NCBI GenBank assembly: GCA_016342455.1
Contig: JAEIOE010000023.1
Span: forward strand, 1-33,758
From: Mycoplasmatota bacterium
GTDB taxonomy: Bacteria > Bacillota_I > Bacilli_A > Izemoplasmatales > Hujiaoplasmataceae
Direction of reading: 5' to 3'
DNA length: 33,758 bases
Position numbers and translations under genes: made by a program. Position 1 is the stretch's first letter; the number at the start of each line of letters is the position of its first letter. Shown piece after piece: positions 135 through 30,891 of the stretch. Under the pieces are notes generated by a model. That model did not search any database, had not been told where the DNA came from, and saw only the letters and a program-made list of their open reading frames with translations.

Positions 135-156
135 CTAAGCTAATAGAAAACCTTTT
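118..156 (-). terminator. probable intrinsic terminator of the long operon
   Basis: On the minus strand an AAAAGG arm (151-156) pairs with CCTTTT (125-130). Inside there is a further TTCT/AGAG pairing with one G-U and an 8-nt loop. A T-rich tract (TTTTTCTTTTTC) follows. The stop codon of the sialate-O-acetylesterase-family gene (135-137) lies inside the hairpin, so the terminator overlaps the gene's end. The stem is weaker than those at 30868 and 32131, so termination may be partial. Confidence 0.5.
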
Positions 157-7464: not shown

Positions 7465-7492
7465 AATATATTTTTTTATTCATCTATATCAA
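7465..7492 (-). promoter_or_regulatory. possible internal promoter for the giant lipoprotein gene
   Basis: On the minus strand TTGATA (7487-7492, overlapping the stop codon of the upstream permease) is followed after 16 nt by TATATT (7465-7470). Each box matches consensus at 5 of 6 positions. It would start transcription about 25 nt before the AAGGAGG site of the lipoprotein gene. The region is very AT-rich, so a chance match is possible. Confidence 0.35.
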
Positions 7493-8445
7493 CCGCCGGC
7501 AATACCGGAACGGTCAACTCCCTCAATAAACCATTTTTGTGCAAAAAGATACACTAGCAGTAATGGTACGATTGAAATTAAAGTCATCGCATATTGAACG
7601 CCAATGTTATAAGTGCTGTTTACAGAATCTAAAGTAACATTACCCTGTGAATACATGGAACTATACAATTGAATAAATGAGTTCAAACTCATTGGTAAGG
7701 TTGTGAGTTCACTACCAAAATATAGCGTTGCTAGTGATGTTTCATTCCAATACCAAACAAATGAATATAGACCAGATATTAAAAAGGCTGGGGCTGCAAG
7801 CGGTATAGATATTGTCAAGAACGTTCTAAAAGTTGATGATCCATCTACTTCTGCAGCTTCTATTAGTTCATCAGGAATTGTCCTAAAGAACTGATAGAAA
7901 ATTAATATAAAGATTGTTTGTCTTATCCCATTTCCAAGTAAGGCAGGGACCCAAAAAGCTCTCACTGAATTCATCAAGTTTAAATTAATTCCAAAAATCT
8001 TTAGATCTCTGTATAAAACCGTTGTTGGAATATAAGTTAAAACGGAAGGAATCAAGAACATTGCAATCATTAAGACTAAAAGAACTTTTTTACCAGGAAA
8101 CTCAAATCGTCCAAATCCATAACCGATTAAGGCAGATGATGTCACCGTTGCCAAAGTCGGATAGATAGAAACCCTTAAGGAATCTAGTAACGCTTCAAAG
8201 AACTTCATATACTCAAAGGCATTCGCGTAATTCTGTAAAGTAATTTCTCTTGGGATCCATGAAATTGAACTATTGATTAAATCTTCAATTGTCATGAAAG
8301 ACTTCGTTAGCATAATTAACAGAGGATATAAGAATATAAAACTAATGCCAATTAACAAAGTATATAGAATTATCTTGAAAATAAGCCCATTTTCGCCGTT
8401 TTTGCCTAATAAAATTTTTCTGACTTTATTCTTTGTACTAGTCAT
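7489..8445 (-). CDS. carbohydrate ABC transporter permease (MalG-type)
   Basis: A 318-aa integral membrane protein with about six hydrophobic helices, the first at about 24-46. The EAA loop that contacts the ATPase is present (EAAEVDGSS, from residue 196), placed before the last two helices as usual for MalG/LplC-type permeases. It pairs with the permease immediately upstream (8461-9501), 15 bp apart; the upstream TAA stop is part of this gene's TAAGGAGG ribosome binding site. It is the second half of the second permease pair in the operon. No ATPase follows; the next gene is the giant lipoprotein. Substrate by context: manno-oligosaccharide. Confidence 0.9.
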   Translation of the reverse strand: MTSTKNKVRKILLGKNGENGLIFKIILYTLLIGISFIFLYPLLIMLTKSFMTIEDLINSSISWIPREITLQNYANAFEYMKFFEALLDSLRVSIYPTLATVTSSALIGYGFGRFEFPGKKVLLVLMIAMFLIPSVLTYIPTTVLYRDLKIFGINLNLMNSVRAFWVPALLGNGIRQTIFILIFYQFFRTIPDELIEAAEVDGSSTFRTFLTISIPLAAPAFLISGLYSFVWYWNETSLATLYFGSELTTLPMSLNSFIQLYSSMYSQGNVTLDSVNSTYNIGVQYAMTLISIVPLLLVYLFAQKWFIEGVDRSGIAGG

Positions 8446-8460
8446 ATATTCACTTCCTCC

Positions 8461-9501
8461 TTAATCATAACGTTTTGATGCTAATCTAATGATTAGTGTA
8501 TAGAAACCAATCACAATCATTTCAATAAAGAATAGCACCCATGATAGAGCAGCTGAATACGCCCTACCGTAGTTAACCTCATCGGTTAATGTTCCTCCTA
8601 ATGAACCTGATTCATCAGAAGTTATTGTAATAATTCGAACCAGTGCATTATTTGAAAGATTCGAATAAACAATCGTTGTGTAGATAATATTGATATATAT
8701 TAAAGGAATCATTGCCGGCAAAGTTATCTTCCAAAACAATTCCCACATCGATGCCCCATCAATCTTCGCTGCTTCATAAATGGATTTATCCATCTTTTGA
8801 AGACCTGCTAGGAAGATGAGTATCTGTACTCCTGATAACCAAAGAATTAACACAATCTTACCAAAAGCTCCAATGATAACATCACTTAAAGCAACCGGTA
8901 AATACTCAGATAACAAACGACTAATCATTCCATTCGCTATTGCTGGTACAGTCAGTAAAGCGTTTCTTTCAAAATTCGCTAACATATTCCCTGAAAGTAA
9001 AATAACCGGGATAAAGAAAATTAATCTAAAAATTGCTCTGCCTTTAATTTTTTGGTTTAACATCATTGCCAATAATAAGGCAAATATTACAACCAGTGGA
9101 ACCACTGTTGAAATATCTTGAAAACTGCTTAAAATTTGCTTCAAATGGAATGGCTCTTCTGTAAAGATTCGCTTAAACTGAGTAAAATTTTGCCACTCCC
9201 CAGTAATCTGCCACCCGACATTGTTAATAAAATAATACTTATCTGATAGGGCCATTCTAATCGACTTGAATAGGATTGGTAAACTGATATAAAGCATTCC
9301 AATGAACCAAGGCGATATAAAGGCTAAGGCATATACTGTTTTTTTAATTCTATTTGGTAATTTCTTAAATTTCTTATTTAGGAACGTCAAGCCTGTATAT
9401 TTAAATATAAACTTGAAACCAGTCCCAATACCCTTTTTAATCTTTAACCAAATACTTTCTATTTGTTTCAATAGGTTTTCTATGATTAGGCTTTTTCTCA
9501 T
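8461..9501 (-). CDS. carbohydrate ABC transporter permease (MalF-type)
   Basis: A 346-aa membrane protein with a basic N-terminal cytoplasmic stretch (about 1-55), a first helix at about 56-78, and the EAA loop YEAAKIDGA (about 242-250). The long N-terminus and size fit MalF/LplB-type permeases that pair with the MalG-type protein encoded next. The ATG overlaps the TGA stop of the DUF5696 gene (ATGA), so translation is probably coupled. A GGGGTGAT site lies upstream. Together the two would form one membrane pore; which of the two binding proteins feeds it is not evident from sequence. Confidence 0.9.
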   Translation of the reverse strand: MRKSLIIENLLKQIESIWLKIKKGIGTGFKFIFKYTGLTFLNKKFKKLPNRIKKTVYALAFISPWFIGMLYISLPILFKSIRMALSDKYYFINNVGWQITGEWQNFTQFKRIFTEEPFHLKQILSSFQDISTVVPLVVIFALLLAMMLNQKIKGRAIFRLIFFIPVILLSGNMLANFERNALLTVPAIANGMISRLLSEYLPVALSDVIIGAFGKIVLILWLSGVQILIFLAGLQKMDKSIYEAAKIDGASMWELFWKITLPAMIPLIYINIIYTTIVYSNLSNNALVRIITITSDESGSLGGTLTDEVNYGRAYSAALSWVLFFIEMIVIGFYTLIIRLASKRYD

Positions 9502-11822
9502 GATAAAATCACCCCATAAGAATTCGCCTTAATCACTCCACCACTAACGAATTGATCGATATTTGTATAGTTTACATAAAGCTTAATACCATTATCATAA
9601 ACTACTTCCGCTACTCCCTCTCTTACATATCTATGATTCAACATTTGCGCGCCTTCCACTCTTTGAAGAGCAGACAAGATATCTTCACTGACATCAACGA
9701 TGGTTGATTTCCATAAATCAAATTCTGATGTGTAGATATACTCAGAATTCGTATATCTTAGTAAATGTGTTGATTCTTTTGTAATTAAGAAAGACGGTGT
9801 AATTCCGTATTCAATCAGTCTTAATTCGAAGATATTATAATCAGAAATATAATTAACATAGCTTGAATACTGATTTACAGAACCACTTAATACTAATTGA
9901 ATAAAAGGAATCGAATCGCTAATATATGCATACTTGTTTGATTCAATTGGCGAATCGTAGTAAGCATTAATATATTTCCATAAATAGGAATTCGGTTCAT
10001 AAAGACCCATTGAATATTCTTCTAAAGAGCTAAGTTCAGCCTCTAATATTTCAATAGATTGATTACGATAAACATTTTCTGAATTGTCTCGATAAGTAAA
10101 TAAATTACTACCCACTGAGTCAAATACAAAGTTATCCATTCCATATTTGCTATAGAAGTCTTCATAGCTTAGCAATGAATCAGCAATCTCATCAGGTGAC
10201 TTAAAGTAAGTAGTTCTAAATAAAGAAGATCTTACTTCGTTCGTCGCAAAATTAGATAAGGTAATCTTTTTTATCGTATGCGATCCCAAAGCCGAAGAAA
10301 AGGCAATTAATGGGTTTGAATAAAATGATATATCCACATCATGAGCTTCTAAGTAGGCTAACATTTCCGAAAAATCTTTCTTCCCACCTAGAATATTCGC
10401 TATTTTTGGACTATCTGTTTGATTATCATAGAAGCCACCCCTATTCCAAGCAAAGTATACTAAGTTTAAATCAGTAAGGTTACTACTAGATAATTGCGCT
10501 ACGATATCAATTACATCAAGATATTGAGTCATCTCAATATAGTTTTTACCGAATAATCCGTTTTTATAATCCATCCCTAATATAAATAGGTTAATGGCAG
10601 TCTTTAACTCTTGTTTTTCTAATTCTAATAACTCCCTGAATTTTAAAGCCATTCCCGAATAACTTGCTTCTTCATTTGATAAGAAGTGATATTCAACAGT
10701 AAAATCTGTTTGGTAAGGCAACTCATTAATCATTTGGAAACTATCACCCTCATTTGTTGAAGTTTGGATAGAATACCTTTCCCTTACTATAAACTTAGCG
10801 AAGGTAGTGTTCATCAGATAGGAGTTATAACCATACGGGTAGGAATGAATCTCAGCGTAAGCATCCCCTTCGGTAATCACCGATAAAAACGCTGCTTGTT
10901 TATAACCATGATTCACTCCAAATACTGGCATGGAAGCTGTTAATTCATCTTGTAAGTAATAGGTTGAATCTTTCGTACTATACTTTAATACTCCTTCATC
11001 TTGACCATAAATTCTTTTTACATAAGCCGTTGATGAACGATTATCGGTATAACGGATTAATCCTCCTGAACCATCAGGAATGAAAGAGTATCCGTTTATT
11101 TCATAATTATTAGATCCAAAATACGGGAAGATATATACTGATTTCAAACGATAACTAATCAATTGCGTATCTGTTGTTCCATCAATATTTAATACTTGTT
11201 TTTCAATATCTCCTTCTGTTAAGGTATCTATTGGTAAATTCACTACTAATTTGTCAGCTGCTATTGATACATTTACATCAAAACTAATCGCTAAATCATT
11301 AAATTCAATATGAGCGACTACTCCATCTTCTAAACTCTCATAATCATAAGTGGTAGACACATTATATTTCGATCCAGATAAATATGATTTTGAGTCATCA
11401 ACCAAAATATTATCTAAATTGTAATACTCAATCACAACCCCTGACTCAACAAAGTACTTAGAAGTACCTGAAAGCATCATTTGACGGTATTCTGGATAAA
11501 CCGAATACCAAAGATAACCAGATGCCTTATCATACACAGCTACATTAAAGTTGCGTTCATAGATATATAGTTCTAAATCATCTGTTTCAGCGACTAACTT
11601 AAAGCCACCAATCAATAATTCTCCTAAGTAATCATCTGGAATACTAACCAATTCTTCATTCTCAGGCTGACCAAAGAAGTTTGAATCTGTAGATATCTCA
11701 TAACTAGTATCAATGGATACTGAAACTTGTTCCGAAATTGCTTTTGCGTTAATTAGGACTGAAGTGATTGCTAGTAAGAATACAACTAAAACAAAACTTA
11801 GGATAATCTTCTTCTTATTCAC
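9498..11822 (-). CDS. DUF5696-type membrane-anchored or exported protein, GH-like fold suspected
   Basis: 774 aa with an N-terminal hydrophobic segment (about 6-25) lacking a lipobox, so probably an uncleaved anchor or ordinary signal peptide. From memory this resembles DUF5696 proteins found beside ABC permeases and Yip1-family proteins in Firmicutes. The N-terminal half is beta-rich (about 60-390) with a NGYSFIPDGSGG segment (243-254). The C-terminal half reads like an alpha/beta barrel: LNLVYFAWNRGG (452-463), DNFVFDSVG (563-571), ISDSIPFIQLVLSG (634-647), and a terminal beta domain ending NSYGVILS. This order recalls clan GH-D/GH101-type hydrolases, but I cannot assign catalytic residues. 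The start is GTG at 11822, chosen because AAGGAAG lies 9 nt upstream; it overlaps the previous stop by 8 bp. The role in the transporter is unknown. Confidence 0.8.
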   Translation of the reverse strand: MNKKKIILSFVLVVFLLAITSVLINAKAISEQVSVSIDTSYEISTDSNFFGQPENEELVSIPDDYLGELLIGGFKLVAETDDLELYIYERNFNVAVYDKASGYLWYSVYPEYRQMMLSGTSKYFVESGVVIEYYNLDNILVDDSKSYLSGSKYNVSTTYDYESLEDGVVAHIEFNDLAISFDVNVSIAADKLVVNLPIDTLTEGDIEKQVLNIDGTTDTQLISYRLKSVYIFPYFGSNNYEINGYSFIPDGSGGLIRYTDNRSSTAYVKRIYGQDEGVLKYSTKDSTYYLQDELTASMPVFGVNHGYKQAAFLSVITEGDAYAEIHSYPYGYNSYLMNTTFAKFIVRERYSIQTSTNEGDSFQMINELPYQTDFTVEYHFLSNEEASYSGMALKFRELLELEKQELKTAINLFILGMDYKNGLFGKNYIEMTQYLDVIDIVAQLSSSNLTDLNLVYFAWNRGGFYDNQTDSPKIANILGGKKDFSEMLAYLEAHDVDISFYSNPLIAFSSALGSHTIKKITLSNFATNEVRSSLFRTTYFKSPDEIADSLLSYEDFYSKYGMDNFVFDSVGSNLFTYRDNSENVYRNQSIEILEAELSSLEEYSMGLYEPNSYLWKYINAYYDSPIESNKYAYISDSIPFIQLVLSGSVNQYSSYVNYISDYNIFELRLIEYGITPSFLITKESTHLLRYTNSEYIYTSEFDLWKSTIVDVSEDILSALQRVEGAQMLNHRYVREGVAEVVYDNGIKLYVNYTNIDQFVSGGVIKANSYGVILS

Positions 11823-13920
11823 GGAGAATCACTTCCTTTATAATGTCTGTTCCAAAGTTCACAACTTGAGTAACCATTAGGTAAACCATTAACAGAATGA
11901 TAATGATAATAATCATAAAGATAATGCTCAAGAAGATATTTACTAAGGTTTGAGACACTGAGTAATTGTGAGTATCTTTAATATTGAAGAACACTAAGAA
12001 TACGCACCAAGCAGTTGCTATAAAAAAGCCTAAATAATAAATAAATGATTCATTCAACGTTAAAACATTAGAAATGATTATTAAAATAGGGTAAATAATA
12101 ATAATTGGCATTAAAGACCCAATTAAGTTAATAAAGGTAGTCTTAAATGTTCCTTCACCTTCCATCAATGAAGACATTAAGTAATTCGATATGATAAATA
12201 TCACAATTGGAATCACTATCTTCAAGCCTTCTTTTACAAGGATGGTTTGTTCTATAATTACATTATTAAAGATAAAGCCTGTATAAAGTAAACTTGCGAT
12301 ATGAATCACAAATAATAAGCCTAAGATAAGCCATGCCGATAACATCGAGGCTCGTTTTTCTACTTTAACTCCATAGATTGCATCAAATGGGTTTTTGATA
12401 AAGTGGAACATATAGAAGAATTGCCGTATTGGTTTTACTTTTAAGACCTTAGTTTTCGTTGTTCCAACAAATCCTAAGTAGTTATATCTTCTATTTGTTA
12501 GTTTTACTAAATTAAACAAAAGAATAAAACCAAATATGAAATAGATAATTGAGGTCATATTCTCTATCAAGAAAATATTCCTAACTTCCCAAAATGCTTC
12601 TGAATAATGTTCTTGATCTCTACATATTTCAAAGTTTTCCATTGCTAATTCATAGTCTTGGTCCATCATACGTCCAAGTCCTATTCCTTGATAAGCAACG
12701 TCTAACATAGAATTGTATCTTAAAACTTCTTCCCAAACTCCAATGCTTTCAGAGTACATTGCATGATTATATAAATCCAATGCTTCATGTACCTTCTTAG
12801 CGAAAAGTGTTTCTCTAAATATTTGAATAGAATTTCTATTCGCATTATCGTCGATAACATAAATATTATTTTTAGAATCTAAAGCTATTGTTGATGCAGA
12901 AACTAATAATCCTAATTTGTCATTTCCAACTCCAGGACCACCCCATGTAAACAAGAGGTTTCCTAAGTTGTCATACTCGAATAAGAATCCTGATGATGTC
13001 ACACAAAATACGTTTTCAACATCTCCAATCCAAGCATCGACAATATTGTTATAAACAAACATATCATCTTCGAAATAATTGATTCCTCCGATGTTAATCT
13101 TTTTCAGATTATCTCCTTGACTGTCTTCATTGCTATTTTGAGTAACAGTGTAAAAATAGCCTTTTCCATCCATCGCTACATTGTAAACAGGTGTTGGAAT
13201 ATTTTTTGTTAAATAGACATTGTCATTGTATTGATAAAGAATTCTTTCAATACGATCCCATAGACTTAAATCAACGTAATTGCTTGCAAAATAATCAACG
13301 AAGCGATTACTTGAATTAATCATCAGTACACCTGAAGTTGTTCCTTCATTAACAACGTACATCGTATGGTTTTTATCTACTGCAATTTTTATAGGTCTAA
13401 ATATGAAATTATCCACTTCTAAGATGTGACTGCTTGGTGTAGAAAAAGTATCTACTAAGGTAATTGAAGTTTCAGGATCAATTGCTTCCTTATCAAATTC
13501 CCATATGTAAATGGAACCAAGATCTTCATTGGTTTTTCCTAAGCCATAATCAGCGACATAGATAAAGTCATCCACTACATGTATCCCTAGTGGTTTCACT
13601 AATAGGTCAGTACCAAATGAAGTAACTACTTCTAAATCAGGGTCTAGTATCACAATTCTTTGATTCCCTGTATCCGCTATGTACATATAATCATCTTCAT
13701 CGATGAACATATCTTTAGCCGAATCTAAAGTGGTCCCATCTGATAGATAACGTATCATATCTATCGCTTCATAAGCTTCACTAGTTTCTACTAACTCATC
13801 TTCTCTATCAAGAGTATAAGTTTTGTAAGCAGATTTCGCTTCTAAAGAAACAGTGAAAGCCATCAGCATTATTAAATTAAGTGTTAGTACTAATAAAAGC
13901 AATAATTTCTTAATTTTCAT
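11815..13920 (-). CDS. NHL-repeat / TPR-like / Yip1-family membrane protein
   Basis: 701 aa. A hydrophobic N-terminal signal or anchor (about 5-28) is followed by a beta-propeller of NHL-like repeats (about 55-375; DEDDYMYIADTGNQRIVILD is one). Next come a short TPR-like helical region (about 378-445; YSESIGVWEEVLR, YELAMENFEICRD), one transmembrane helix (about 453-472) and a C-terminal Yip1-like domain with about five helices (about 500-695; starts near KNPFDAIYGVK). The propeller and TPR would face outside, the Yip1 part sits in the membrane. It lies between two permease pairs and directly before DUF5696, so I infer an accessory subunit of the uptake machinery. Only a weak ribosome binding site (GGGAA) is visible, 1 bp after the previous stop. 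Function is not established. Confidence 0.8.
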   Translation of the reverse strand: MKIKKLLLLLVLTLNLIMLMAFTVSLEAKSAYKTYTLDREDELVETSEAYEAIDMIRYLSDGTTLDSAKDMFIDEDDYMYIADTGNQRIVILDPDLEVVTSFGTDLLVKPLGIHVVDDFIYVADYGLGKTNEDLGSIYIWEFDKEAIDPETSITLVDTFSTPSSHILEVDNFIFRPIKIAVDKNHTMYVVNEGTTSGVLMINSSNRFVDYFASNYVDLSLWDRIERILYQYNDNVYLTKNIPTPVYNVAMDGKGYFYTVTQNSNEDSQGDNLKKINIGGINYFEDDMFVYNNIVDAWIGDVENVFCVTSSGFLFEYDNLGNLLFTWGGPGVGNDKLGLLVSASTIALDSKNNIYVIDDNANRNSIQIFRETLFAKKVHEALDLYNHAMYSESIGVWEEVLRYNSMLDVAYQGIGLGRMMDQDYELAMENFEICRDQEHYSEAFWEVRNIFLIENMTSIIYFIFGFILLFNLVKLTNRRYNYLGFVGTTKTKVLKVKPIRQFFYMFHFIKNPFDAIYGVKVEKRASMLSAWLILGLLFVIHIASLLYTGFIFNNVIIEQTILVKEGLKIVIPIVIFIISNYLMSSLMEGEGTFKTTFINLIGSLMPIIIIYPILIIISNVLTLNESFIYYLGFFIATAWCVFLVFFNIKDTHNYSVSQTLVNIFLSIIFMIIIIIILLMVYLMVTQVVNFGTDIIKEVILRE

Positions 13921-13921
13921 A

Positions 13922-14872
13922 TTATTTTATTCCCGAGTGAGCCATTGTATTCATCACATTTTTCTGTAGTAAGATAAATAATACTATATTTGGAACAAAT
14001 ATTATTAAACTGGCCGCAGCTGACATACCTTGTGCCGCAATCGCAGAGTTACCTAAGGTCAATGTTGAGAAATAATAAGGCAGAGTTTTTAACGCTTCAT
14101 TATCTACATATAATGATGAAGTTTCAATATTGTTCCAAGAAGCTTGGAATGCAAGTATCGCTACTGTCATTAATGCAGGTTTTACTAAAGGCATTACTAT
14201 TTTTGTATAAATTTTCCAGTTATTCGCACCGTCAATAACCGCTGATTCATATAGTTCTCTTGGTACTTGATCCATAAACTGTTTTACTAAGAAAACACCT
14301 ACAGGCATTGCAAGTAACGGAATGATATGACTAAACATATTATTCGTTAATCCGAGTGAACTCATTACAATAAATCTTGGAACTGCGATAGCTACTGGTA
14401 CAATCATAATCGCTATTTGATTTAAACCAAATAGTGCCTTCTTCCCTTTATATTTTAGGAAAGAGAAAGAATAAGCAGCGAGTGAACCAAGCAATATAGA
14501 TAAGAATATCGTAACTGTAGTTGACACCACTGAGTTAAATAGATATCTAAGGAAAGGCACTCCTGTTTGTGAAGCCGCAATAAACAGGCTTCTAAAATTC
14601 TCGAAAGTAATTCTTGATGCAAATATTCTCGGTGGATATGCATATAGTTCCGATAACGGTTTAAATGCATGTGAGAATATATAAATAAGTGGCAAGACTG
14701 TAATAAGAAGCATTGGTAACATTAAAAAGATAAACTTTAGTTGAGAAACATGGAAACAACTAGGATTAATCTTGATTCCTTGGAATCGTTTCATATTTCT
14801 TCTTGCTTTTCTAAGGTATTTTCTTTTTACTCTTTCTGTCTTTGTTAACTCTTGGTTTCTAAGTTTTATCAT
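13922..14872 (-). CDS. carbohydrate ABC transporter permease (MalG-type)
   Basis: 316 aa with a very basic N-terminus (about 1-35), then about six helices. The EAA-type loop reads LYESAVIDGANN (about 207-218), with Glu209 and the Asp-Gly pair kept. It belongs to the MalG side and pairs with the permease encoded just upstream; its ATG overlaps that gene's TGA (ATGA). A GGGGAG site precedes the start. Its loop sequence differs clearly from that of the other MalG-type protein (7489-8445), so the two pairs are not recent duplicates. Confidence 0.9.
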   Translation of the reverse strand: MIKLRNQELTKTERVKRKYLRKARRNMKRFQGIKINPSCFHVSQLKFIFLMLPMLLITVLPLIYIFSHAFKPLSELYAYPPRIFASRITFENFRSLFIAASQTGVPFLRYLFNSVVSTTVTIFLSILLGSLAAYSFSFLKYKGKKALFGLNQIAIMIVPVAIAVPRFIVMSSLGLTNNMFSHIIPLLAMPVGVFLVKQFMDQVPRELYESAVIDGANNWKIYTKIVMPLVKPALMTVAILAFQASWNNIETSSLYVDNEALKTLPYYFSTLTLGNSAIAAQGMSAAASLIIFVPNIVLFILLQKNVMNTMAHSGIK

Positions 14873-15780
14873 CGTATCTTCTTCTCCCCAAATAATTTAA
14901 TGGAGAAACTATAGAACACCATAACAATTGAAAGCAAGACAACTGACATAGCGGAAGCATAACCCATTTCATATCGACCGAAACCATAATCGTTCATATG
15001 GTCAACAATTAGCCAACCGGCTAATTGAGGTGGTGGAATAGAACCGGATAGTGCAGCTGCCAATCCAGCAGCGTTAAATGTACCAACTACAGCCATAACC
15101 GCTCCAAATAACATCTGCGGTTTCATTGATGGGATGGTAATATAGAAAATCTCTTGCCAGCGATTTTTCAATCCATCCACATAGGCTGCTTCATATAAAT
15201 CTTTATCTACATTTAGAATTCCGGATAACATTGCTAGAAATCCTACTGACATAGAAGACCAAAGGCCTACAAATATCATAATTCCAAATATCATTCTTGT
15301 ATCTTGGAGCCATTGAACTGGCTCATTGATAATTCCTAGATTCAATAAGAAGTAATTTAAATATCCTCTCGTATCCCCAGAAAACATAACCTTCCAAATA
15401 ACAGTCATCAACACCCCACTAGTTAAAGAAGGTGAATAGAGAATGATTGCTAAGACAGTACGAAGCTTAGGGGCTACTTGAGCCAATAGCCAAGCCATCA
15501 TAAAGGCGATAATATAACCGATAGGTCCAATGATTAACGCGTATTTAATCGTTGTTGGTAAGGCATATTGCATAAAGTCTGAATCTTGTGTAAATAAGTT
15601 AATGTAATTTTGGAATCCAACAAAAGATGGAAAATTTATTGTATCGTAATAGGTTAGTGATAAAATCACAGATATTAAGATCAATAAGACTACAAAAGTA
15701 AAGAATACAAGGAAGTACGGTAGGATAAACAAATAAGAGTCATTGAATTTCTTTTTCTTCATCGTTGTTTTATTAGTCAT
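14869..15780 (-). CDS. carbohydrate ABC transporter permease (MalF-type), start corrected
   Basis: A MalF-type permease with the EAA loop LYEAAYVDGLKNR at about residue 195-205 and a final segment with FGRYEMGYASAMSVV. An in-frame ATG exists at 15819, but I chose the ATG at 15780 (about 303 aa) because AAGGAGG lies 9 nt upstream of it; the ATG at 15786 is only 3 nt from the same site, and the one at 15819 lies within the upstream gene without such a site. The chosen start overlaps the stop of the 998-aa binding protein by 8 bp (ATGACTAA), so translation is probably coupled. It forms the first permease pair with 13922-14872. Confidence 0.85.
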   Translation of the reverse strand: MTNKTTMKKKKFNDSYLFILPYFLVFFTFVVLLILISVILSLTYYDTINFPSFVGFQNYINLFTQDSDFMQYALPTTIKYALIIGPIGYIIAFMMAWLLAQVAPKLRTVLAIILYSPSLTSGVLMTVIWKVMFSGDTRGYLNYFLLNLGIINEPVQWLQDTRMIFGIMIFVGLWSSMSVGFLAMLSGILNVDKDLYEAAYVDGLKNRWQEIFYITIPSMKPQMLFGAVMAVVGTFNAAGLAAALSGSIPPPQLAGWLIVDHMNDYGFGRYEMGYASAMSVVLLSIVMVFYSFSIKLFGEKKIR

Positions 15781-18769
15781 CGCCATATTCCTCCTTAATC
15801 CAAGTTGAAATGTTTTCATCCATTGGAACTATATAAGGAATTCCGTCTGGATTATTTACTGATAAATATCCAAACTCATCATTCTTTCTTGACAACTCTC
15901 TAATAATCCTAGGAATAGACTCGTTAATCGCAACTAAGACATTGTCTTGGTCAATTACTACTTTATTCCAAATATTAGATAACTCTCTTTCTACTATGTA
16001 ACTACCCGGTGTAACAGCAGGTAATCTAGACCACATCGCTTGTTCAGCTATCGTATCTTTAACGCCTTCGTTCCAAACGGATTGTTTCATTGCGTTCATA
16101 TTCGCTGAGATTAGTAAGTATTTCTCTCCTAAACTCGTTTTAATGTTTTGCATATATTTAATCTGTGTTTCGGTAGAATTCCACCATTTAATTAATGCCC
16201 AAGCTTCTTCTGTCATATTTGAATTTGAGAAGAGAATAGAAGTCTTACCATAAGTAGGTGACCATCTCTCCACAGTATCAGAATCAGCATTATAAGTGCC
16301 AGGAAGCACAGCGACTCCCCATTGTCCTGATAATTCTGGAGCTGCGTATTGTAATTGTAAATATAAATCAATAGTTGAAATACCAATAGGCATATCTCCT
16401 GAACGGAAATGTTCAAAGAAACTAGATACTTGTAATGGTAAATCATAGATAGTAAACAAATCAGTCATGAATTCGACTGCTCTAATCGTGTCTGAATCCA
16501 TTAAAGTTGAATACACACCATTTTCAGTGTAGATTTCTCCACCAAACTGATAAATAAATGGTGAGGTAAATCCAAATCCTTTATAAGAAGTATCTCCACC
16601 TAATGGATGATAAAAATTCATTTGGTGAGACTGTAAGATTGGTAACATATCAATCACATCATCCCAAGTATCTGGAACTTCTAAGTCAAGATATTCCATA
16701 ATATCCTTACGGTAGAACAGTAAAAATACGCTTTGTGTTTCAGGTATTGCATACACCCCATCTTCAAAGATTACAGGAGTAAAATTGTTTGCGTAATAAT
16801 TCGTAGCTACTTCATCGAAACCTTCCAATTTAGACATATCCTCCAACATACCTCTTAATGCATAGGCATATGGAACCCAACTGTCTATTGATAAAACAAC
16901 ATCTGGATTATCGTTCGTTGCGTTCGATAACACCACTTTTTGGGTATTGTTCATAATCGAACACTTCACCGAAACTCCAGTATCGGCCGAAAAGCCTTGG
17001 TCAATCATCGATTGAATAATATCTAAGTATAGGTTTGATTGTCCAACCCATACTTCTAAGGTATCTTCATCGACATCATTATCGTTGTATCTTGTATCAA
17101 AGAAAGAATAAAAGAAACTTCTAATTCCATCCCATACTTTTCTAAAGAATGATCCATTTGGATCTGGTAATTCAACGTTATTTGATAAATAGATACAATC
17201 TACAGATAAGGGTTCTGAAATTAAATAAGAAACAGCATTACCAATTAATTGATAAGCAGAACCTGAACCTTCTGAGAATTCAGTTAATTTAGAGCCAATC
17301 TTATTTGGCGTTCTTGCAATTCTTCTTAATTGCTTCGCCGCTACATTAAGTGTTGTTGCTTCTCCAACGTTGTCAGATCCTGTATCTAAGTCATCAATAA
17401 TAATATAGATTTCTTCTAAGCGAGTTGCGTAAGCTAAGAGTTGTTCCTCTAAATCTGGAATATACTTTAAGATATTCCAGTCCAATGTATCTGTATTATT
17501 TCCACCGGTTATCGTTTGCACTTCTAAACTAATAGCAGAAATAGAATCCATAATTTCATTTAATTCATCAACATAGCTCATATAAGGAGCTACAGTTGAT
17601 TCTATGGTTAAGGTATGCGTACCGCTCTCTAAGTAAAAGAAGAAAGCTCCTGAATCATTTCCTAATGTTACGTTTGAATATTTTTTTGAGGTAGGGAATA
17701 AATATCCTTCTAACTCAGAGAAAGGTATTTCTCCATCAATATAGATATTCTTTGCCGCTGCGATTCCTAAATTCGTATCATGCATCGCTTTGAAAGACAT
17801 ATTGAAGAATCCACTTACTGCTACTTCAAATTCATAAGTAGCTAAGGTTCCACCTCTACTGCTTGAAGATCCATCTAGTTGATTTAAAACTGTATTTTTA
17901 TAACTATAAGGAGTCATCGCTGATTCTTTATAATAACTAGACTTCACTTCTAAGTCATTCTTATAAACAAAAGACTCTCCTTCAATTTGAATAAATGATG
18001 AACTTGTTGTAGAAGTTATGGCTGCATTATCTTGATTTGAATACTCTGAATAATCAATTAAATCAGTTTGTCCTTTAATGTAAGCATCCCCTATATACAT
18101 AGGTATGCTTAAATTGGTAATAGATATTTCATTGACACCTTCATGTAATAAGAATTTGTAGTTATCACTTACATATGAGTTATAGTCATCAAAATAATAC
18201 TTCGACCATGCGATAACAGATTCACTTGTTGGTAATAATTCATTACCATAGCGATTATATCTAGCGTCTTCTGGTAATTCTTTTATTTCCCATAAAACCT
18301 CTAATTCTAATTCAGCTAGTTCGTTATACTGACTTTCTCCATTCACAGTAATACTAATAGTAGGTATCGTATAAAACTCATCAGGAATCAAGAAATCTAT
18401 TCCTAACTCATAAAGACCCTCACTGTCAACAATTACATCAAAACTAAGAGTTTCATCTTCATTAAGAGCAACTACTTTCGTTGAATGGTACTGAGAATCC
18501 ACGAAAAACGTGATATCAGGGTTTGAGCCTTGAAAATCACTAATGCTAATTCTTTCTTCAACTTTCGAAATAAGGTTAAATTCTTCTAACCATTGATTCA
18601 ATCTACGATAGTAGGTATTATTTCGAAAATCGCTTAAATTAAATGAATCATCTGCTTCTAAAACAGTTGATGTATCCGGTAATGTTTTTGATAGAACTGT
18701 AGTTATTCTGAACATAGCTATGATAAAAAAGTTTAGTATGAGTAAAGTAACTAAGAAAAATTTCTTCAT
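15773..18769 (-). CDS. membrane-anchored extracellular solute-binding protein with a large N-terminal beta-rich extension
   Basis: 998 aa from the ATG at 18769. This start gives MKKFFLVTLL directly and has GGGGG 5 nt upstream; an in-frame extension to 18796 would lie inside the hairpin region and is unlikely. The N-terminal helix (about 4-22) has no lipobox Cys, unlike the other binding protein. Residues about 30-260 and 262-420 are beta-rich; the second part begins IQIEGESFVYKND, which resembles CBM6/CBM35-like modules. A helical linker follows (about 420-475). Residues about 565-998 form a type-1 sugar-binding domain (YAIPETQSVFLLFYRKDIME, WALIKWWNS). Normal binding proteins are 400-550 aa, so this one carries over 500 extra residues. 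It may grip a polymer end while loading the permeases (inference). Its ribosome binding site can be hidden in a hairpin (18775-18789). Confidence 0.85.
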   Translation of the reverse strand: MKKFFLVTLLILNFFIIAMFRITTVLSKTLPDTSTVLEADDSFNLSDFRNNTYYRRLNQWLEEFNLISKVEERISISDFQGSNPDITFFVDSQYHSTKVVALNEDETLSFDVIVDSEGLYELGIDFLIPDEFYTIPTISITVNGESQYNELAELELEVLWEIKELPEDARYNRYGNELLPTSESVIAWSKYYFDDYNSYVSDNYKFLLHEGVNEISITNLSIPMYIGDAYIKGQTDLIDYSEYSNQDNAAITSTTSSSFIQIEGESFVYKNDLEVKSSYYKESAMTPYSYKNTVLNQLDGSSSSRGGTLATYEFEVAVSGFFNMSFKAMHDTNLGIAAAKNIYIDGEIPFSELEGYLFPTSKKYSNVTLGNDSGAFFFYLESGTHTLTIESTVAPYMSYVDELNEIMDSISAISLEVQTITGGNNTDTLDWNILKYIPDLEEQLLAYATRLEEIYIIIDDLDTGSDNVGEATTLNVAAKQLRRIARTPNKIGSKLTEFSEGSGSAYQLIGNAVSYLISEPLSVDCIYLSNNVELPDPNGSFFRKVWDGIRSFFYSFFDTRYNDNDVDEDTLEVWVGQSNLYLDIIQSMIDQGFSADTGVSVKCSIMNNTQKVVLSNATNDNPDVVLSIDSWVPYAYALRGMLEDMSKLEGFDEVATNYYANNFTPVIFEDGVYAIPETQSVFLLFYRKDIMEYLDLEVPDTWDDVIDMLPILQSHQMNFYHPLGGDTSYKGFGFTSPFIYQFGGEIYTENGVYSTLMDSDTIRAVEFMTDLFTIYDLPLQVSSFFEHFRSGDMPIGISTIDLYLQLQYAAPELSGQWGVAVLPGTYNADSDTVERWSPTYGKTSILFSNSNMTEEAWALIKWWNSTETQIKYMQNIKTSLGEKYLLISANMNAMKQSVWNEGVKDTIAEQAMWSRLPAVTPGSYIVERELSNIWNKVVIDQDNVLVAINESIPRIIRELSRKNDEFGYLSVNNPDGIPYIVPMDENISTWIKEEYGDD

Positions 18770-18774
18770 GTTTT

Positions 18775-18789
18775 CCCCCTTCAAGGGGG
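18775..18789 (-). promoter_or_regulatory. hairpin that can hide the ribosome binding site of the 998-aa binding protein
   Basis: On the minus strand CCCCC (18785-18789) faces GGGGG (18775-18779) across TTGAA; the whole 15-mer is palindromic apart from its centre. GGGGG is the only Shine-Dalgarno-like element of the downstream gene, 5 nt before its ATG at 18769. When folded, initiation should be reduced. The CCCCC arm shares 2 nt with the neighbouring GC-rich hairpin (18788-18805), so the two compete slightly. Confidence 0.65.
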
Positions 18790-18805
18790 CCGCCAATCGG
18801 CGGCC
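18788..18805 (-). other. GC-rich intergenic hairpin after the binding-protein gene
   Basis: GGCCGCC and GGCGGCC arms form a perfect 7-bp, all-GC stem with a 4-nt loop, 7 nt after the stop codon of the solute-binding protein gene. No T-run follows, so it is not a standard terminator. In other sugar operons, stable hairpins just after the binding-protein gene block 3' exonucleases and raise binding-protein levels over permease levels; the position here fits that role (inference). Such a GC-only element stands out strongly in this AT-rich DNA. Confidence 0.7.
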
Positions 18806-18812
18806 TATTTAT

Positions 18813-20351
18813 TTAACCGTTTAAATCATCAATTAATACTTGTAATATTTCTTTTGCATTTTCCATTGCTGCTTGTGCTTCTGTTTGTAATGTATCTTTT
18901 ATCGCTGCGTAAGAAGTATCACCAATTCTTGTATTGTATAGGTATGAATACGCAACTGAATATGCTTCATCAAAACCAACTGATTCTTTGTTGATCCAAT
19001 ATGCACCATTTTTAAGTGATTCGATAAATTCTGGAGAAACAAATCCAGGAGCTGTAATTCCATAAGGGATTTTTTCCCATATTTCATTAACACCTTGACC
19101 ATTAATTCCGTAATCTACTACTGGATAACCATAGTTATTCGCTGATATAAATACTTGTGTAGAAAAATCTTCGAATAATTGATATCTTGTTAATAAGCCT
19201 TCTTGGCTAAAAGACATCCATTTCAGTAATTGATAAGCTGCTTTTGGGTTTTCAGAAGTGGAAGAGATACCTGCGATATCTGTATTACCACCGGTAACAC
19301 CATTTGGTCCAGGATAAACATCCCATTCAAATAACATTTGGTCGAAATAATCTTTTACAAACCATGATGCATCGGCCCACATAGCTACTTTACCATTATA
19401 AGCAGGTTCAAAGCTTGAATCTAAGTACCAATCTTCTAAATCTTCAGGTCCAAGTTCTCCAACTAAGAATCCTTCGTTAATCGCATCAGTCATCATATTC
19501 ATAGCTGATAAGAAAGCAGGATCATCAAAATGGAAATTCGTACCATCAAAACCTAAAGCTTGCCATTTGTTCGCTGCTTCTAATTCAGCAGGGGTAGTTG
19601 CTGCTTCAATTTTTAATACTTTTGCTAATTCTCTTTCATAAAAACTTGTATTGTAAGTACCAATGATATGGTAGTTTTCATTTGTAGTTGCACGAGCAAT
19701 AGCTTCCATTTGTTGGTAAGTCCAATCATATCCTGGTGCTGCAACACCTGCTGCATCTAAGATATCTAAGTTTACAATCCAAACTCTTGGATAGATAAAG
19801 GTAGGAATTGCATATCTTTTTTCGTTATACATACCTAATTCACTAACTGAATCAAATACATATTGAGTATCAGGATCATTGTCATAATATTCCGTCATAT
19901 CCGCTAAGATATTATAAGGCAAGAAACTTGCGATACGGTTTACTAAGAATGCATCTGGTAATGTTCCAGCTTCTGAAGCTGCGATAAAGTTTGCATCCCA
20001 TTCTTCTGAAGAAGCACCCATCATTTGAATTTCTACCGTAATATTAGGGTATTTTTCTTCAAAGGCATTAATCATTAAAGATTCAATAGTTACCACATCA
20101 GCTGATGTATGTTGCCAAGTTGAATACGTTAAGGTAATTTCTTGTTCTGTCCAATCTTCAATACCATTTGCATCTTCATCCCAGTAAGTTGCTACAAGTG
20201 GTGCTGTCGTTTGAGTTCCGTTTTGCGTAGTTGTATCATTCACTCCACTAGTCGTTACAGTAGTTTGACCCTCTGAAGTTGTCTCTTCTCCACAACTTAG
20301 AATACTAAAGGCTGAGAATACAAGTACCAAAGCAATTATTATTTTTTTCAT
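18813..20351 (-). CDS. lipoprotein solute-binding protein of a sugar ABC transporter
   Basis: 512 aa with a lipoprotein signal and lipobox ILSC (Cys20), followed by a Thr-rich linker (about 27-52). The mature protein is a type-1 extracellular binding protein: LTYSTWQHTSADVV and EKYPNITVEIQMMG near the start, the hinge-region YAIPTFIYPRVWIVNLD, and the C-terminal NPKAAYQLLKWMS. A short ...YWDEDANGIEDWTEQ insert precedes the domain. It would bind the imported oligosaccharide outside the membrane and deliver it to one of the permease pairs. The gene lies between the second DUF5060 enzyme gene and the 998-aa binding protein gene, and is followed by the strong hairpin at 18788-18805. Confidence 0.9.
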   Translation of the reverse strand: MKKIIIALVLVFSAFSILSCGEETTSEGQTTVTTSGVNDTTTQNGTQTTAPLVATYWDEDANGIEDWTEQEITLTYSTWQHTSADVVTIESLMINAFEEKYPNITVEIQMMGASSEEWDANFIAASEAGTLPDAFLVNRIASFLPYNILADMTEYYDNDPDTQYVFDSVSELGMYNEKRYAIPTFIYPRVWIVNLDILDAAGVAAPGYDWTYQQMEAIARATTNENYHIIGTYNTSFYERELAKVLKIEAATTPAELEAANKWQALGFDGTNFHFDDPAFLSAMNMMTDAINEGFLVGELGPEDLEDWYLDSSFEPAYNGKVAMWADASWFVKDYFDQMLFEWDVYPGPNGVTGGNTDIAGISSTSENPKAAYQLLKWMSFSQEGLLTRYQLFEDFSTQVFISANNYGYPVVDYGINGQGVNEIWEKIPYGITAPGFVSPEFIESLKNGAYWINKESVGFDEAYSVAYSYLYNTRIGDTSYAAIKDTLQTEAQAAMENAKEILQVLIDDLNG

Positions 20352-20363
20352 ATTTTTCCTCTC

Positions 20364-22277
20364 TCACTTCAAGATAAAAGCGTAATCTTCGCTAATATCT
20401 AAATTTTCTATTGTAAATACTCCATTTGTAATTGTAACTGTAGTAACTGATAAGATATCACCTGTTTTGGTGTCAAAAACAGATAGAGTATAAGTTCCAT
20501 TGTCGAATGGTATCTCCACTGTGATATCTTGTATCACATCAGGAGAACTATTCCAGTAATTCCACATCTTATTGTAAATTAGTCCATAGATTTCATTTTC
20601 TAAGAGATAACCGATTATGAAGATATCATCATCACTTGTTGTTACTTGATTATTCTCTTGTAGTAACGTGTAGTTCTTATTGGCAACATCCATGTAAGTA
20701 GCGTAGGTGGAAGCCCCTTCCATTTGGAACCATAGATCATATCTATCAATCCAAGTGTCCCACCACCATTGATTCGCAGAACCAGCACTAGAGAGTAAGC
20801 CTCCCCACATACCTTGGTGGATTGTTATTCCTTGATAATCTGAACTATAGGTAGAACTACCTGCTTGCCAATCAATACCAACTTCACCAAATAGTACAGG
20901 TTTTTGGTATTTATCCCAAAGTTTAGTCATTTCATCATTTAACATTTCATAGTAAATTTCATTAGCGAAACCATAACTATGAAACGTTGCGAAATCTAAA
21001 GAGTCTAAATCAAAGCCAGGAGTTCCAAATGTATATTTATAACTTGTGGTTACTAAATGATTATATGGATCGTTCGCATGAATAAACTGTGCCATTTCAT
21101 CTTTCCAACGAGTTACTACTAAAGATGAATAACCATCTACCCAGTCTGTTTCATTGAACAGTTCCCAGGCAAAGATATTTTCCGAGTAGCCAAATCGAGA
21201 AATCAAATACATCAATTCATTCTTATAAGCAGTTTTTGCTTCTTCATTATAGAAGAATTGTATTGGATATTCTAGCATTCCTCCATTAGCTTCGTTATAA
21301 GGATTTTCAGCCCATTCAGGATTTGTAATCGCTGAGAACTGACCATGATTAATCAATGTTAGTAATACATAGACATCAAACTCTTTTGCAGTTTCGAATA
21401 AGTAATCTAATCTTGCTAAGATGTTTTGTCTTGAATCAAAATCATCATAGGAATATTTATGTAATGAGTAAGACCAGTTTGCTAACCAAATCCTCCCCAT
21501 GTTTGCATTCACTTCATTAAGTTCTTTGAACCAGTTATAGTAATCATGTGTTGAAAGCGTTGTACTTGGCCATCCAAGATTCACTCCATTTGGAAAATAA
21601 GATTCATCACTGGCTGAAAAGATAAAGTTTCTTTTGTTTACTTGATCCACTTCGATAAATCCAGCGCTTCTTTCTGAATTATCAGAAACAGAAAAAGTAC
21701 CAGTAGTTGTTTGAAGCGTCTCTCCTCTAACAACTATCGCTGCAGAATAATTCCAAAGTCCAGCTTCATCAGGGTTGATTCTTACACGATAATGATTCGG
21801 TGTTTCATTATCCATTGTTACATGTTCTTGACCAGCTGTATAAAAGCCTTCATCATCTATTACTTCACCAACTACTCTTATTGCCAAGTACTCTTGAATC
21901 CAAAAAGCTGTTTGAGTGACACTGCATCCAGATGGTTTTGTAAACTCTACTACTACTTTTATTTCGTTATAATCATAAGGATTATAATTATCTGCTATTT
22001 TTAAATCTTCTATATCTTCAAAAAAATCTATCTCTAGTAAATTGTCTACTGAAATGTGTTCAGTAACAATTGTTGAATCAGAAAATTCAACTGCTATTAT
22101 TTCTTTGGTTGTAACTGTTTCTTCGGTTGTTTCAATCACAGTTGTTTCCACTGTATTACTTGTTGTGTCATCAGCCATAGTAGTTGTCCTTTCTGTATCA
22201 TTAGGATTACAAGCAATCATCAATACACTAATAGTTAGTATGAGTATACAGGATACTAACCTTTTGTATTTGATCAT
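20364..22277 (-). CDS. lipid-anchored DUF5060 + GH-A (GH5-like) glycoside hydrolase
   Basis: 637 aa with lipobox MIAC (Cys23) and a Thr/Glu-rich linker (about 29-58). Residues about 85-200 form a DUF5060-like beta-sandwich. Residues about 208-540 form a (beta/alpha)8 barrel with clan GH-A landmarks: RIWLANW (262-268), WELFNETDW with likely acid/base Glu376, FHSYG with His433 and Tyr435, and KPVLFGEVG with likely nucleophile Glu465. A WWWDTWID segment (505-512) is an aromatic patch that may line the sugar subsites. A small beta domain ends the protein. It should cut polysaccharide at the cell surface by a retaining mechanism; mannan is inferred only from neighbours. It overlaps the upstream GH130 gene by ATGA. 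No classical GH26, GH113 or clear GH5_7 mannanase is present, so this enzyme and 23320-25749 are the main candidates. Confidence 0.88.
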   Translation of the reverse strand: MIKYKRLVSCILILTISVLMIACNPNDTERTTTMADDTTSNTVETTVIETTEETVTTKEIIAVEFSDSTIVTEHISVDNLLEIDFFEDIEDLKIADNYNPYDYNEIKVVVEFTKPSGCSVTQTAFWIQEYLAIRVVGEVIDDEGFYTAGQEHVTMDNETPNHYRVRINPDEAGLWNYSAAIVVRGETLQTTTGTFSVSDNSERSAGFIEVDQVNKRNFIFSASDESYFPNGVNLGWPSTTLSTHDYYNWFKELNEVNANMGRIWLANWSYSLHKYSYDDFDSRQNILARLDYLFETAKEFDVYVLLTLINHGQFSAITNPEWAENPYNEANGGMLEYPIQFFYNEEAKTAYKNELMYLISRFGYSENIFAWELFNETDWVDGYSSLVVTRWKDEMAQFIHANDPYNHLVTTSYKYTFGTPGFDLDSLDFATFHSYGFANEIYYEMLNDEMTKLWDKYQKPVLFGEVGIDWQAGSSTYSSDYQGITIHQGMWGGLLSSAGSANQWWWDTWIDRYDLWFQMEGASTYATYMDVANKNYTLLQENNQVTTSDDDIFIIGYLLENEIYGLIYNKMWNYWNSSPDVIQDITVEIPFDNGTYTLSVFDTKTGDILSVTTVTITNGVFTIENLDISEDYAFILK

Positions 22278-23296
22278 TTCCCTATTTCTCCATCACGTCC
22301 AACAGACTCATGATTTTCTTTAATATAATCTACAATGTCATCAATTGTAGTATAGGCAAGTGCAACATAAGAATCAGCTGCCCCATAGTATATTGCAATT
22401 CTTCCTGTTTTTGGGTCATGAATCGTAGCACAAGGGAAGACAACATTTGATACAAACCCTCGTTCTTCATATTCTTTTTCAGGAGTTAACACATAGTTTC
22501 TACAGCGGTACTTCACCTTTGAAGGTTCATCCTTATCTAGAATAGCAGCTCCCATTGAGTAAACATAACCATTACAAGTGTTACAAACACCATGATAGAA
22601 CATTAACCATCCTTCAGATGTTTCAATAGGTGCAGGTCCTCCACCAATCTTAAGACCTTGCCACCAACCTTCGCCACCACTTTGCATGACATGACGATGT
22701 TTTCCCCAGTATACTAAATCTGGACTTTGTGATAAGAAGATATCTCCAAAAGGAGTATGTCCATTATCAGAAGCTCTTGAAAGCATTTGATAATTATTGT
22801 TAATCTTTCTTGGGAACATGACCCCATTTCTATTAAAAGGTATAAATGGATTTTCTAATCTAACAAAAGTTTTAAAATCTTTTGTTTTAGCTAAACCAAT
22901 AGCTGGTCCATGTGCTTCTGTACACCAGATAACGAAGTATTCATCATCTATTTTTACAACACGAGGGTCGTAAGCATAATATGGATTCCATGATTTTCCT
23001 GATTCATCAACCATCTCTAGTTGTTTATCTTCAAAATGCCATTGAATACCATCATTAGATCTACCTACTCTTAAATGAGGTAGGGTATAAACTGTTTCGG
23101 CTCTAAATACACCGATAAATGTTCCATCTCTCCAGGTAACGACAGCTGAATTAAAAATTCTCGCTATCCCTTTTATTGGATTTCTTTTCACAATTGGATT
23201 GTGAACAGAACGCCACATTGGCTCAATGCAGTTAAGAGGTTTATCCTCCCAAGGCATATTCTCTATTTCTTCGCTTATTATTTTATATTTGCTCAT
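22274..23296 (-). CDS. GH130 beta-mannoside phosphorylase-like enzyme (1)
   Basis: 340 aa, no signal peptide, so cytoplasmic. The five-bladed propeller pattern of GH130 is clear: RNPIKGIARIFNSAVV, RVGRSNDGIQWHF, AYDPRVV with the likely general-acid Asp, KIGGGPAPIET, FYHGVCNTCNGYVYSMGAA, VVFPCATIHD, and the closing YYGAADSYVALA. Characterised GH130 members cleave beta-mannosides, mostly by phosphorolysis to mannose-1-phosphate, which saves ATP; some subgroups are hydrolases. The TCNGxVYSMGAA segment suggests the mannooligosaccharide-phosphorylase branch (GH130_2), recalled from family knowledge and not checked. AAGGA lies 7 nt before the ATG. It stands between the two DUF5060 enzyme genes. Confidence 0.9.
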   Translation of the reverse strand: MSKYKIISEEIENMPWEDKPLNCIEPMWRSVHNPIVKRNPIKGIARIFNSAVVTWRDGTFIGVFRAETVYTLPHLRVGRSNDGIQWHFEDKQLEMVDESGKSWNPYYAYDPRVVKIDDEYFVIWCTEAHGPAIGLAKTKDFKTFVRLENPFIPFNRNGVMFPRKINNNYQMLSRASDNGHTPFGDIFLSQSPDLVYWGKHRHVMQSGGEGWWQGLKIGGGPAPIETSEGWLMFYHGVCNTCNGYVYSMGAAILDKDEPSKVKYRCRNYVLTPEKEYEERGFVSNVVFPCATIHDPKTGRIAIYYGAADSYVALAYTTIDDIVDYIKENHESVGRDGEIGK

Positions 23297-25756: not shown

Positions 25757-26761
25757 TCAATTTATTTTTTCTACTGAATCCTTATATATGATAGTTCCTG
25801 GTATCAGGATACGGTCATATACTTTCTTTGGATTATCAATCATTTTATTAATGACCTTAACAGCTGTTGACACCATTTTTTCTATATTATGATCTACTGT
25901 TGTTATTTTAGGGTTTGATATATTCGAGAATAAAGAATTATCAAAGCCGACTACTGAACAATCTCTTGGGATTTCTACTCCCATTGATTTTAATTTTTCC
26001 ATTAATGTAAATGCGACTCTATCGCAATTACATACAAAAGCACTAGGTAATACTTTAGGAACTTCTATATCGATTAGAATCCCATGTTCATTACGGTCTT
26101 CAATAATAATAGATTTGTCTAATTCAATTTCTTTTGTAATAAGTGCTTTGTAGTATCCTAGATATCTATCTTGGATACTAGTTGTTGCATTAATAGAACC
26201 AACAAAGGCTATTTCTCTATGTCCGTTTTCTATTAAGTATTCCGTTAAACGATACCCTGAATAGAAATTGTCAGCTTGGATTGAATTTACATCAGATTTA
26301 TTTAAATAAAAATCAAAATATATTAATGGAATAGAGATATTTTCTAATAGTCTTAAGTAAGGGATTGAAAGTTGTCCAAGAACGATGATTCCATCTACTT
26401 TTTTCTCGTTGTACACTCGTGGCATGATTCCTGCTTCTTCCGTTTCTTCTTTAATAATTTCCATTATTCCAGAAGTACCGATTGTATCAAGCTTTTTGAT
26501 GATTTCTCCGCATACAGAGAAATAATAAGCTTCTTGATCTAGTACATATTTTTCGGCAATTAAAATACCAATATTGTATTGTCTATCTGTTTTCAAACTT
26601 CTCGCAGCGATATTCATTCGGTAGCCCATGTTTTCGGCTACTTCTTTTACCCTAACTCTCAGTTCTTCAGATACTCCTTCTTTGTCTGATAAAGCTTTTG
26701 AAACTGAAACTTTACTTATACCTAGTTTCTCAGCTATTTCAGACATTCCGATTCTTTTCAT
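25757..26761 (-). CDS. LacI-family transcriptional regulator
   Basis: 334 aa. The N-terminal helix-turn-helix (about 4-50) reads MSEIAEKLGISKVSVSKALS, followed by the hinge AARSLKT and a periplasmic-binding-like sensor domain with IGILIAEKY, VDGIIVLGQL, RLTEYLIENGHREIAFVG and DCSVVGFDNS, all typical of LacI/GalR proteins. It most likely senses an oligosaccharide or sugar-phosphate from this pathway and controls the promoter at 30807-30835, with 30787-30803 as a candidate operator (inference). It is the third gene of the operon and has no promoter of its own in the 19-bp gap, so it would be made together with its targets. A GGGGGT ribosome binding site precedes the ATG. Confidence 0.93.
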   Translation of the reverse strand: MKRIGMSEIAEKLGISKVSVSKALSDKEGVSEELRVRVKEVAENMGYRMNIAARSLKTDRQYNIGILIAEKYVLDQEAYYFSVCGEIIKKLDTIGTSGIMEIIKEETEEAGIMPRVYNEKKVDGIIVLGQLSIPYLRLLENISIPLIYFDFYLNKSDVNSIQADNFYSGYRLTEYLIENGHREIAFVGSINATTSIQDRYLGYYKALITKEIELDKSIIIEDRNEHGILIDIEVPKVLPSAFVCNCDRVAFTLMEKLKSMGVEIPRDCSVVGFDNSLFSNISNPKITTVDHNIEKMVSTAVKVINKMIDNPKKVYDRILIPGTIIYKDSVEKIN

Positions 26762-30867: not shown

Positions 30868-30891
30868 AAAAAGCGGATTTCTCCGCTTTTT
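30868..30891. terminator. intrinsic terminator (A-tract/T-tract, reads in both directions)
   Basis: A 10-bp stem (AAAAAGCGGA paired with TCCGCTTTTT) with a GAAA loop on the minus strand, followed by a T-run. The stem begins inside the TAA stop of the GH130 gene. It separates that gene from the operon promoter about 33 nt further on. Because A- and T-tracts flank both sides it could also stop plus-strand transcription. Confidence 0.9.

Follow-up and report, generated by a model that had tools for sequence, protein, structure and literature searches.

An eight-gene cassette encoding two solute-binding proteins, two permease pairs, an NHL-TPR-Yip1 protein and a DUF5696 protein was characterised here in a Mycoplasmatota bacterium (Hujiaoplasmataceae), and was found with the same gene order in dozens of Gram-positive lineages, wall-less ones included. 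The window, i.e. the whole stretch of DNA that was analysed, is the entire contig JAEIOE010000023.1 (33,758 bases). With somewhat better than even confidence, the cassette is considered to be a cargo-neutral machine in which two CUT1 importers would share the accessory proteins Y and D as well as one MalK/MsmX-type ATPase. It may be a route for large sugar fragments into these bacteria.

Gene content of the window and probable cargo

According to open reading frames and Pfam matches, eight abutting genes occupied positions 20351 to 7489 in the transcription order s, B, F, G, Y, D, f and g; neighbouring genes overlapped or almost touched, and all genes under discussion in the window were located on the minus strand (Table 1). 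Both methods confirmed every element of the original prediction, which had announced a composite importer composed of two binding proteins, four permeases, an NHL-TPR-Yip1 protein and a DUF5696 protein. The span given there, 9498 to 20351, was nevertheless too short at its lower limit, as the second permease pair runs to 7489. Three copies of Y and three copies of D were present in the genome, all inside cassettes. The two paralogous loci displayed the same gene order with DUF5696 proteins that were only 29-31% identical to the window copy; since the arrangement recurs there and in more than 150 other loci, it is not attributable to chance.

Table 1. Features of the window
Feature	Coordinates	Strand	Evidence
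CE2 acetyl esterase, surface	29209-30765	-	Pfam
Second GH130	30890..31915	-	PF04041; 9fj8
GH2 mannosidase-like	26781-29216	-	Pfam
LacI-type regulator	25757..26761	-	PF00356, PF13377
Lipoprotein, 809 aa	23320-25749	-	Big_2/Big_3 domains
GH130, cytoplasmic, nearest beta-1,4-mannooligosaccharide phosphorylase	22274..23296	-	PF04041 E 3.4e-75; 5ayd E 4.5e-117
DUF5060/GH5-like lipoprotein, probable endo-mannanase	20364..22277	-	PF16586; PDB 9gmj and several GH5 endo-beta-1,4-mannanases
s: small lipoprotein solute-binding protein, 512 aa	18813..20351	-	PF01547 E 2.9e-14; lipobox ending Cys20
B: 1007-aa binding protein with N-terminal TM anchor	15773..18796	-	PF01547 at 595-878; AF2 pLDDT 84.7
F: pair 1 permease, MalF type	14869..15819	-	PF00528 E 2.2e-11; EAAYVDG loop
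G: pair 1 permease, MalG type	13922..14872	-	PF00528 E 1.1e-16; ESAVIDG loop
Y: signal/TM, NHL propeller, TPR and multi-TM Yip1 domain, 701 aa	11815..13920	-	PF01436, PF04893
D: DUF5696 protein, 774 aa, single N-terminal TM/signal segment	9498..11822	-	PF18952 E 1.3e-134
f: pair 2 permease, MalF type	8461..9501	-	PF00528 E 2e-9; EAAKIDG loop
g: pair 2 permease, MalG type	7489..8445	-	PF00528 E 4.2e-15; EAAEVDG loop
Lipoprotein, 1891 aa	1758-7433	-	Ig-like and CBM_4_9 domains
SASA-type esterase, no signal segment found	135..1673	-	PF03629

Judging from the neighbouring enzymes, the cargo of the window copy is probably acetylated beta-1,4-mannan. Degrading enzymes that are expected outside displayed lipoprotein or signal segments, which were absent from the GH130, GH2 and SASA proteins of the window, and the SASA-type esterase may thus be devoted to cytoplasmic deacetylation. 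The 809-aa lipoprotein is a paralogue of the DUF5060/GH5-like protein and is probably a second surface mannanase. The 1891-aa lipoprotein is encoded directly after g, and similar giant proteins followed the cassette in related mannan loci.

Other loci displayed other neighbours. GH144-type glucanases and enzymes of the 1,2-beta-oligoglucan phosphorylase type were found beside the cassette in 50 out of 139 loci and GH16 in 21 out of 139, followed by GH66, GH13, GH130/GH5 and others, while GH10/GH43, GH32, GH30, GH76 or alpha-L-arabinofuranosidase accompanied single Paenibacillus and other loci. The corresponding polymers were beta-mannan (here), beta-1,2-glucan, laminarin, dextran, starch, xylan, fructan and muramyl sugars. 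As neighbouring enzymes vary by locus, the module is not tied to one sugar, in line with cargo-neutral oligosaccharide import. Cassettes with a split Y gene were located beside NamZ, GH3, a BadF-type kinase, MurQ and NagB in five loci (L037:5981-11901, L041, L204, L205 and L283), and the sequences of these neighbours suggest a variant that handles muramyl sugars or fragments of the cell wall.

Conservation of the cassette

The order B-F-G-Y-D-f-g was displayed by 162 complete loci (156 exact and six near-exact), a count that includes duplicates, some loci having been entered twice via two collections; distinct cassettes with unsplit genes numbered 106. They were encountered in Izemoplasma, Acholeplasma, Haloplasma, Bacillus, Lederbergia, Sutcliffiella, Paenibacillus, Halolactibacillus and Clostridiales. 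Gene overlaps were frequent at the junctions B-F (86%), Y-D (88%) and D-f (78%).

Eighty loci in named genomes were found via B and are consequently biased towards an intact B, so that searches based on DUF5696 constituted an independent test. A DUF5696 search detected this family in 43 of the 61 considered relatives. The neighbourhoods examined were those of the DUF5696 genes of the relatives, of 36 further ones from the phylum and of the complete DUF5696 set of one Paenibacillus genome, and they displayed B-F-G-Y-D-f-g nearly without exception; in the Paenibacillus genome, all ten genes were located in cassettes. The positions of Y and D in 20 more distant genomes were taken from coordinates only. 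Four weak and partial DUF5696 matches (35-54 bits), situated outside any cassette, were treated as other proteins of ~600 aa. A conservation limited to close relatives was rejected, the cassette having been found in distant lineages by B-based and DUF5696-based searches alike.

Co-occurrence was assessed in 399 genomes sampled from the phylum of Paenibacillus castaneae, using a threshold of E<1e-20 for D. D was present in 37 of them, all of which (37/37) contained Y, and Y was present in 38 in total (Fisher p 1.7e-51); its match in the single genome devoid of D was fragmentary.

Gene-deficient loci stopped at contig edges, with the sole exception of a decayed cassette (L091:9403-12508), of which only f, g and a 3' portion of D were left between GH30-like and GH16-like genes. 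In one clade, Y was represented by two genes, one for the NHL-TPR part and the other for the Yip1 part. The genes f and g were fused in five loci, including L089, L227, L230 and L232, and this ~620-aa fusion supports the view that f and g act as a pair.

Neither a description of the cassette nor a DUF5696 paper was found in the open-access literature searched. Together with the near-invariant order and the near-perfect co-occurrence of Y and D, this strongly supports the earlier proposal of a conserved but undescribed module. The original prediction was to fall if these families had no conserved neighbourhood in other genomes; the 162 loci revealed a strongly conserved one.

Components of the putative importers

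The EAA loops were intact and all different in the four permeases of the window. Among the 106 distinct cassettes, the loop was present in F of 106, G of 94, f of 104 and g of 104; being kept in both pairs, it suggests that both should engage ATPases. In a permease tree including nine stand-alone permeases, F, G, f and g formed one clade each and F joined stand-alone CUT1 permeases, not f. A recent duplication of a permease pair was rejected on these grounds, as had been anticipated from the EAA loops in the original prediction.

No dedicated ATPase gene for the cassette was found in the window, and the genome contained exactly one OB_MalK ATPase gene (C84). Where an ATPase was linked, it was a single MalK-type gene (L078, L276). 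One clade within the same family carried, after the cassette, three genes, for a VTC-domain protein, a probable DUF4956 protein and another small product (L078:12997-16206 and L082:3576-6737), followed in turn by genes for a MalK-type ATPase, phosphoglycerate kinase and triosephosphate isomerase. With PF01547 in s and B, EAA permease pairs and a MalK-type OB/TOBE ATPase in the genome, the system displays the features of CUT1 importers, except that the binding protein and the permease pair are doubled and are joined by Y and D in an order that does not change.

The predicted architecture of B comprised an N-terminal membrane helix, two beta-sandwich regions, a helical bundle, an amphipathic helix and a C-terminal solute-binding domain; its start codon is likelier to be the ATG at codon 10 than the TTG. 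Foldseek matched the model best to 5ci5 and then to the beta-1,2-glucooligosaccharide binding protein 5yse.

Pairwise-distance correlations between components across 91 cassettes were all high (0.71-0.89), as expected of a unit inherited together. Partial correlations of evolutionary distances, computed over 61 groups and to which similar evolutionary rates could add (s, Y, f and g being fast; B, F and G slow), were higher for s with f (0.20) and g (0.35) than with F (0.08) and G (-0.03), and for B with F (0.22) and G (0.32) than with f (0.14) and g (0.05). At either grouping level, 99% or more of the resamples gave a positive preference of s for f/g; that of B for F/G was weaker, being positive in 99% of resamples but in 82% with only 21 groups. 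Where the small binding protein gene was relocated from its position upstream of B, it was found beside f/g (L044, L116, L273 and L276) or one gene downstream (L211). Distance statistics and gene relocations thus suggest two partnerships, one of s and f/g and one of B and F/G. Y displayed partial correlations with both B (0.25) and s (0.27), and may be linked to both sides.

The Yip1 (PF04893) match of the window copy of Y reached 28.0 bits, with a Pfam cut-off of 28.6. Profile matches to NHL propellers and to consensus-TPR structures in the PDB were found, and TM-like segments at 6, 449, 527, 559, 599, 626 and 662 correspond to an N-terminal TM or signal segment and six segments after the NHL-TPR part. 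YknW, a Yip1-family protein, is mentioned in PMC4887032 (citing Yamada et al. 2012) as modulating assembly of the YknXYZ ABC transporter. By analogy with this precedent, an organising role of Y is plausible, and Y may be a scaffold.

D yielded a confident model (AF2 pLDDT 86.9), whose best PDB match by Foldseek, over the whole length, was the GH129 enzyme 5opq (E 6.3e-33, TM 0.61/0.71), and its sequence was weakly similar to that of ZgGH129 (E 5e-6). The predicted model thus adopts the GH129 fold, but the catalytic nucleophile and acid/base that GH129 enzymes have where beta4 and beta5 end are not conserved: with positions mapped from predicted strands rather than superposed coordinates, 52% of 151 sequences carried D or E at site 568 (beta4 end), and site 609 (beta5 end) was mostly Q, N, R or K. 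Residues P249, D250, G251, G253, Y388, P639, N657 and N751 were conserved in the same sequences and look structural. Modelling therefore indicates that D is likely a glycan-binding pseudo-glycosidase of GH129 fold, presumably non-catalytic, so that a likely structure and role can be assigned to DUF5696. Longer DUF5696 proteins, of 1037-1317 aa instead of the usual 750-870, were encountered in L213, L217, L218, L223, L226 and L231, whose cassettes belong to other families within the class.

Proposed working and known systems

The composite character announced by the original prediction holds for the two binding proteins and two permease pairs, which are best read as two importers sharing two extra proteins. 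Importer 1 would consist of B and F/G and importer 2 of s and f/g, both drawing energy from the one MalK/MsmX-type ATPase of the genome, whose gene lies elsewhere. Y, with its NHL propeller and TPR outside and its multi-span Yip1 domain in the membrane, would hold or organise the two importers, and D, as an anchored pseudo-glycosidase, would bind glycan near the translocators. Surface lipoprotein endo-enzymes would cut the polymer, the binding proteins and D would retain fragments at the membrane, and these would enter via one or both permease pairs before cytoplasmic enzymes complete their breakdown. Indirect support for the earlier idea of a surface machine that takes up long oligosaccharides comes from the polysaccharide-degrading enzymes encoded nearby in most classified loci; long cargo and a physical complex are putative elements of this model. 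A more elaborate version is advanced only tentatively: a physically joined, double-barrelled ABC importer with two complete CUT1 translocators, two different binding proteins, an NHL-TPR-Yip1 bridge and a dead glycosidase as glycan arm, serving general large-oligosaccharide uptake in Gram-positive lineages.

The cassette might instead be two ordinary CUT1 importers in one operon, importer 1 for longer and importer 2 for shorter or differently decorated products of the same polymer, with Y and D as assembly or anchoring factors and no joint machine. The separate origin of the permease pairs, their intact EAA loops and the binding protein that tracks each pair in evolution fit this reading. It is nonetheless rather unlikely, since independent importers are expected to separate at times, whereas order and content were fixed over very distant lineages and many cargos, and Y and D were not found with a single pair in intact loci.

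The two other readings concern the accessory proteins. It is improbable that D acts as a glycoside hydrolase, either GH129-like or novel in type, and trims glycans at the importer mouth: the whole-length fold, the weak similarity to ZgGH129 and the frequent acid at the beta4-end site point to such an activity, but no acid is conserved at the beta4/beta5 ends, and its members, found with alpha- and beta-linked cargos alike, share no active site that would match them. A conventional glycosidase was therefore not favoured, and some members might still be active, roughly half of the family having kept D or E at site 568. It is highly improbable that Y (and D), instead of taking part in transport, form a sensor that signals the capture of glycans to the cell. 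An extracytoplasmic propeller/TPR part joined to a multi-span membrane domain would suit a sensor, as would the LacI regulators near many loci; however, these regulators differ in type and place, the cassette encodes neither a conserved signalling domain nor a partner regulator of its own, and the Y and D genes lie between the two permease pairs.

Two importers sharing Y and D resemble CUT1 importers (MalEFGK2; MsmX-dependent ones of B. subtilis) by their family-1 binding proteins, BPD_transp_1 pairs with EAA loops and a shared MalK/MsmX-type ATPase encoded elsewhere. They differ from them by the doubled binding proteins and permease pairs and by Y and D, which standard CUT1 importers lack. 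YknWXYZ of B. subtilis and B. amyloliquefaciens likewise combines a Yip1-type membrane protein with an ABC transporter, but there a MacB-like exporter, YknYZ, is accompanied by a membrane fusion protein. The cassette comprises importer permeases, its Yip1 domain bears an NHL-TPR outside part, and neither a MacB-like permease nor a membrane fusion protein was found among its genes. GH129 enzymes (ZgGH129, 5opq/8rzk; NagBb, 5wzn) share the predicted whole-length fold of DUF5696, which in contrast lacks the conserved catalytic acids, carries an N-terminal membrane anchor and always accompanies an importer cassette.

Loci of GH161/GH94 beta-glucan phosphorylases, including those of Acholeplasma laidlawii, were described as containing ABC genes without ATPase, the permeases being regarded as ordinary or incomplete ABC transporters (PMC6484121). 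Permease and binding protein genes, beta-glucan enzymes and the absence of a linked ATPase are common to both, whereas Y and D are not mentioned in that description. The pair of adjacent clusters of A. laidlawii may be a cassette of the same kind, and several published 'incomplete' ABC transporters are worth rechecking.

The likeness to SusC/SusD of Bacteroidota is limited to the proposed role, surface capture coupled to oligosaccharide uptake. The cassette is ATP-driven and has no TonB-dependent channel, SusD fold or outer membrane; Pfam detected neither TonB-dependent SusC nor SusD lipoprotein families in the window. Capture and import of large glycans by single-membrane bacteria are far less understood than SusCD in Bacteroidota, and the cassette, with at least eight kinds of polymer, up to ten copies per genome and two families without assigned role, offers a defined and testable system.
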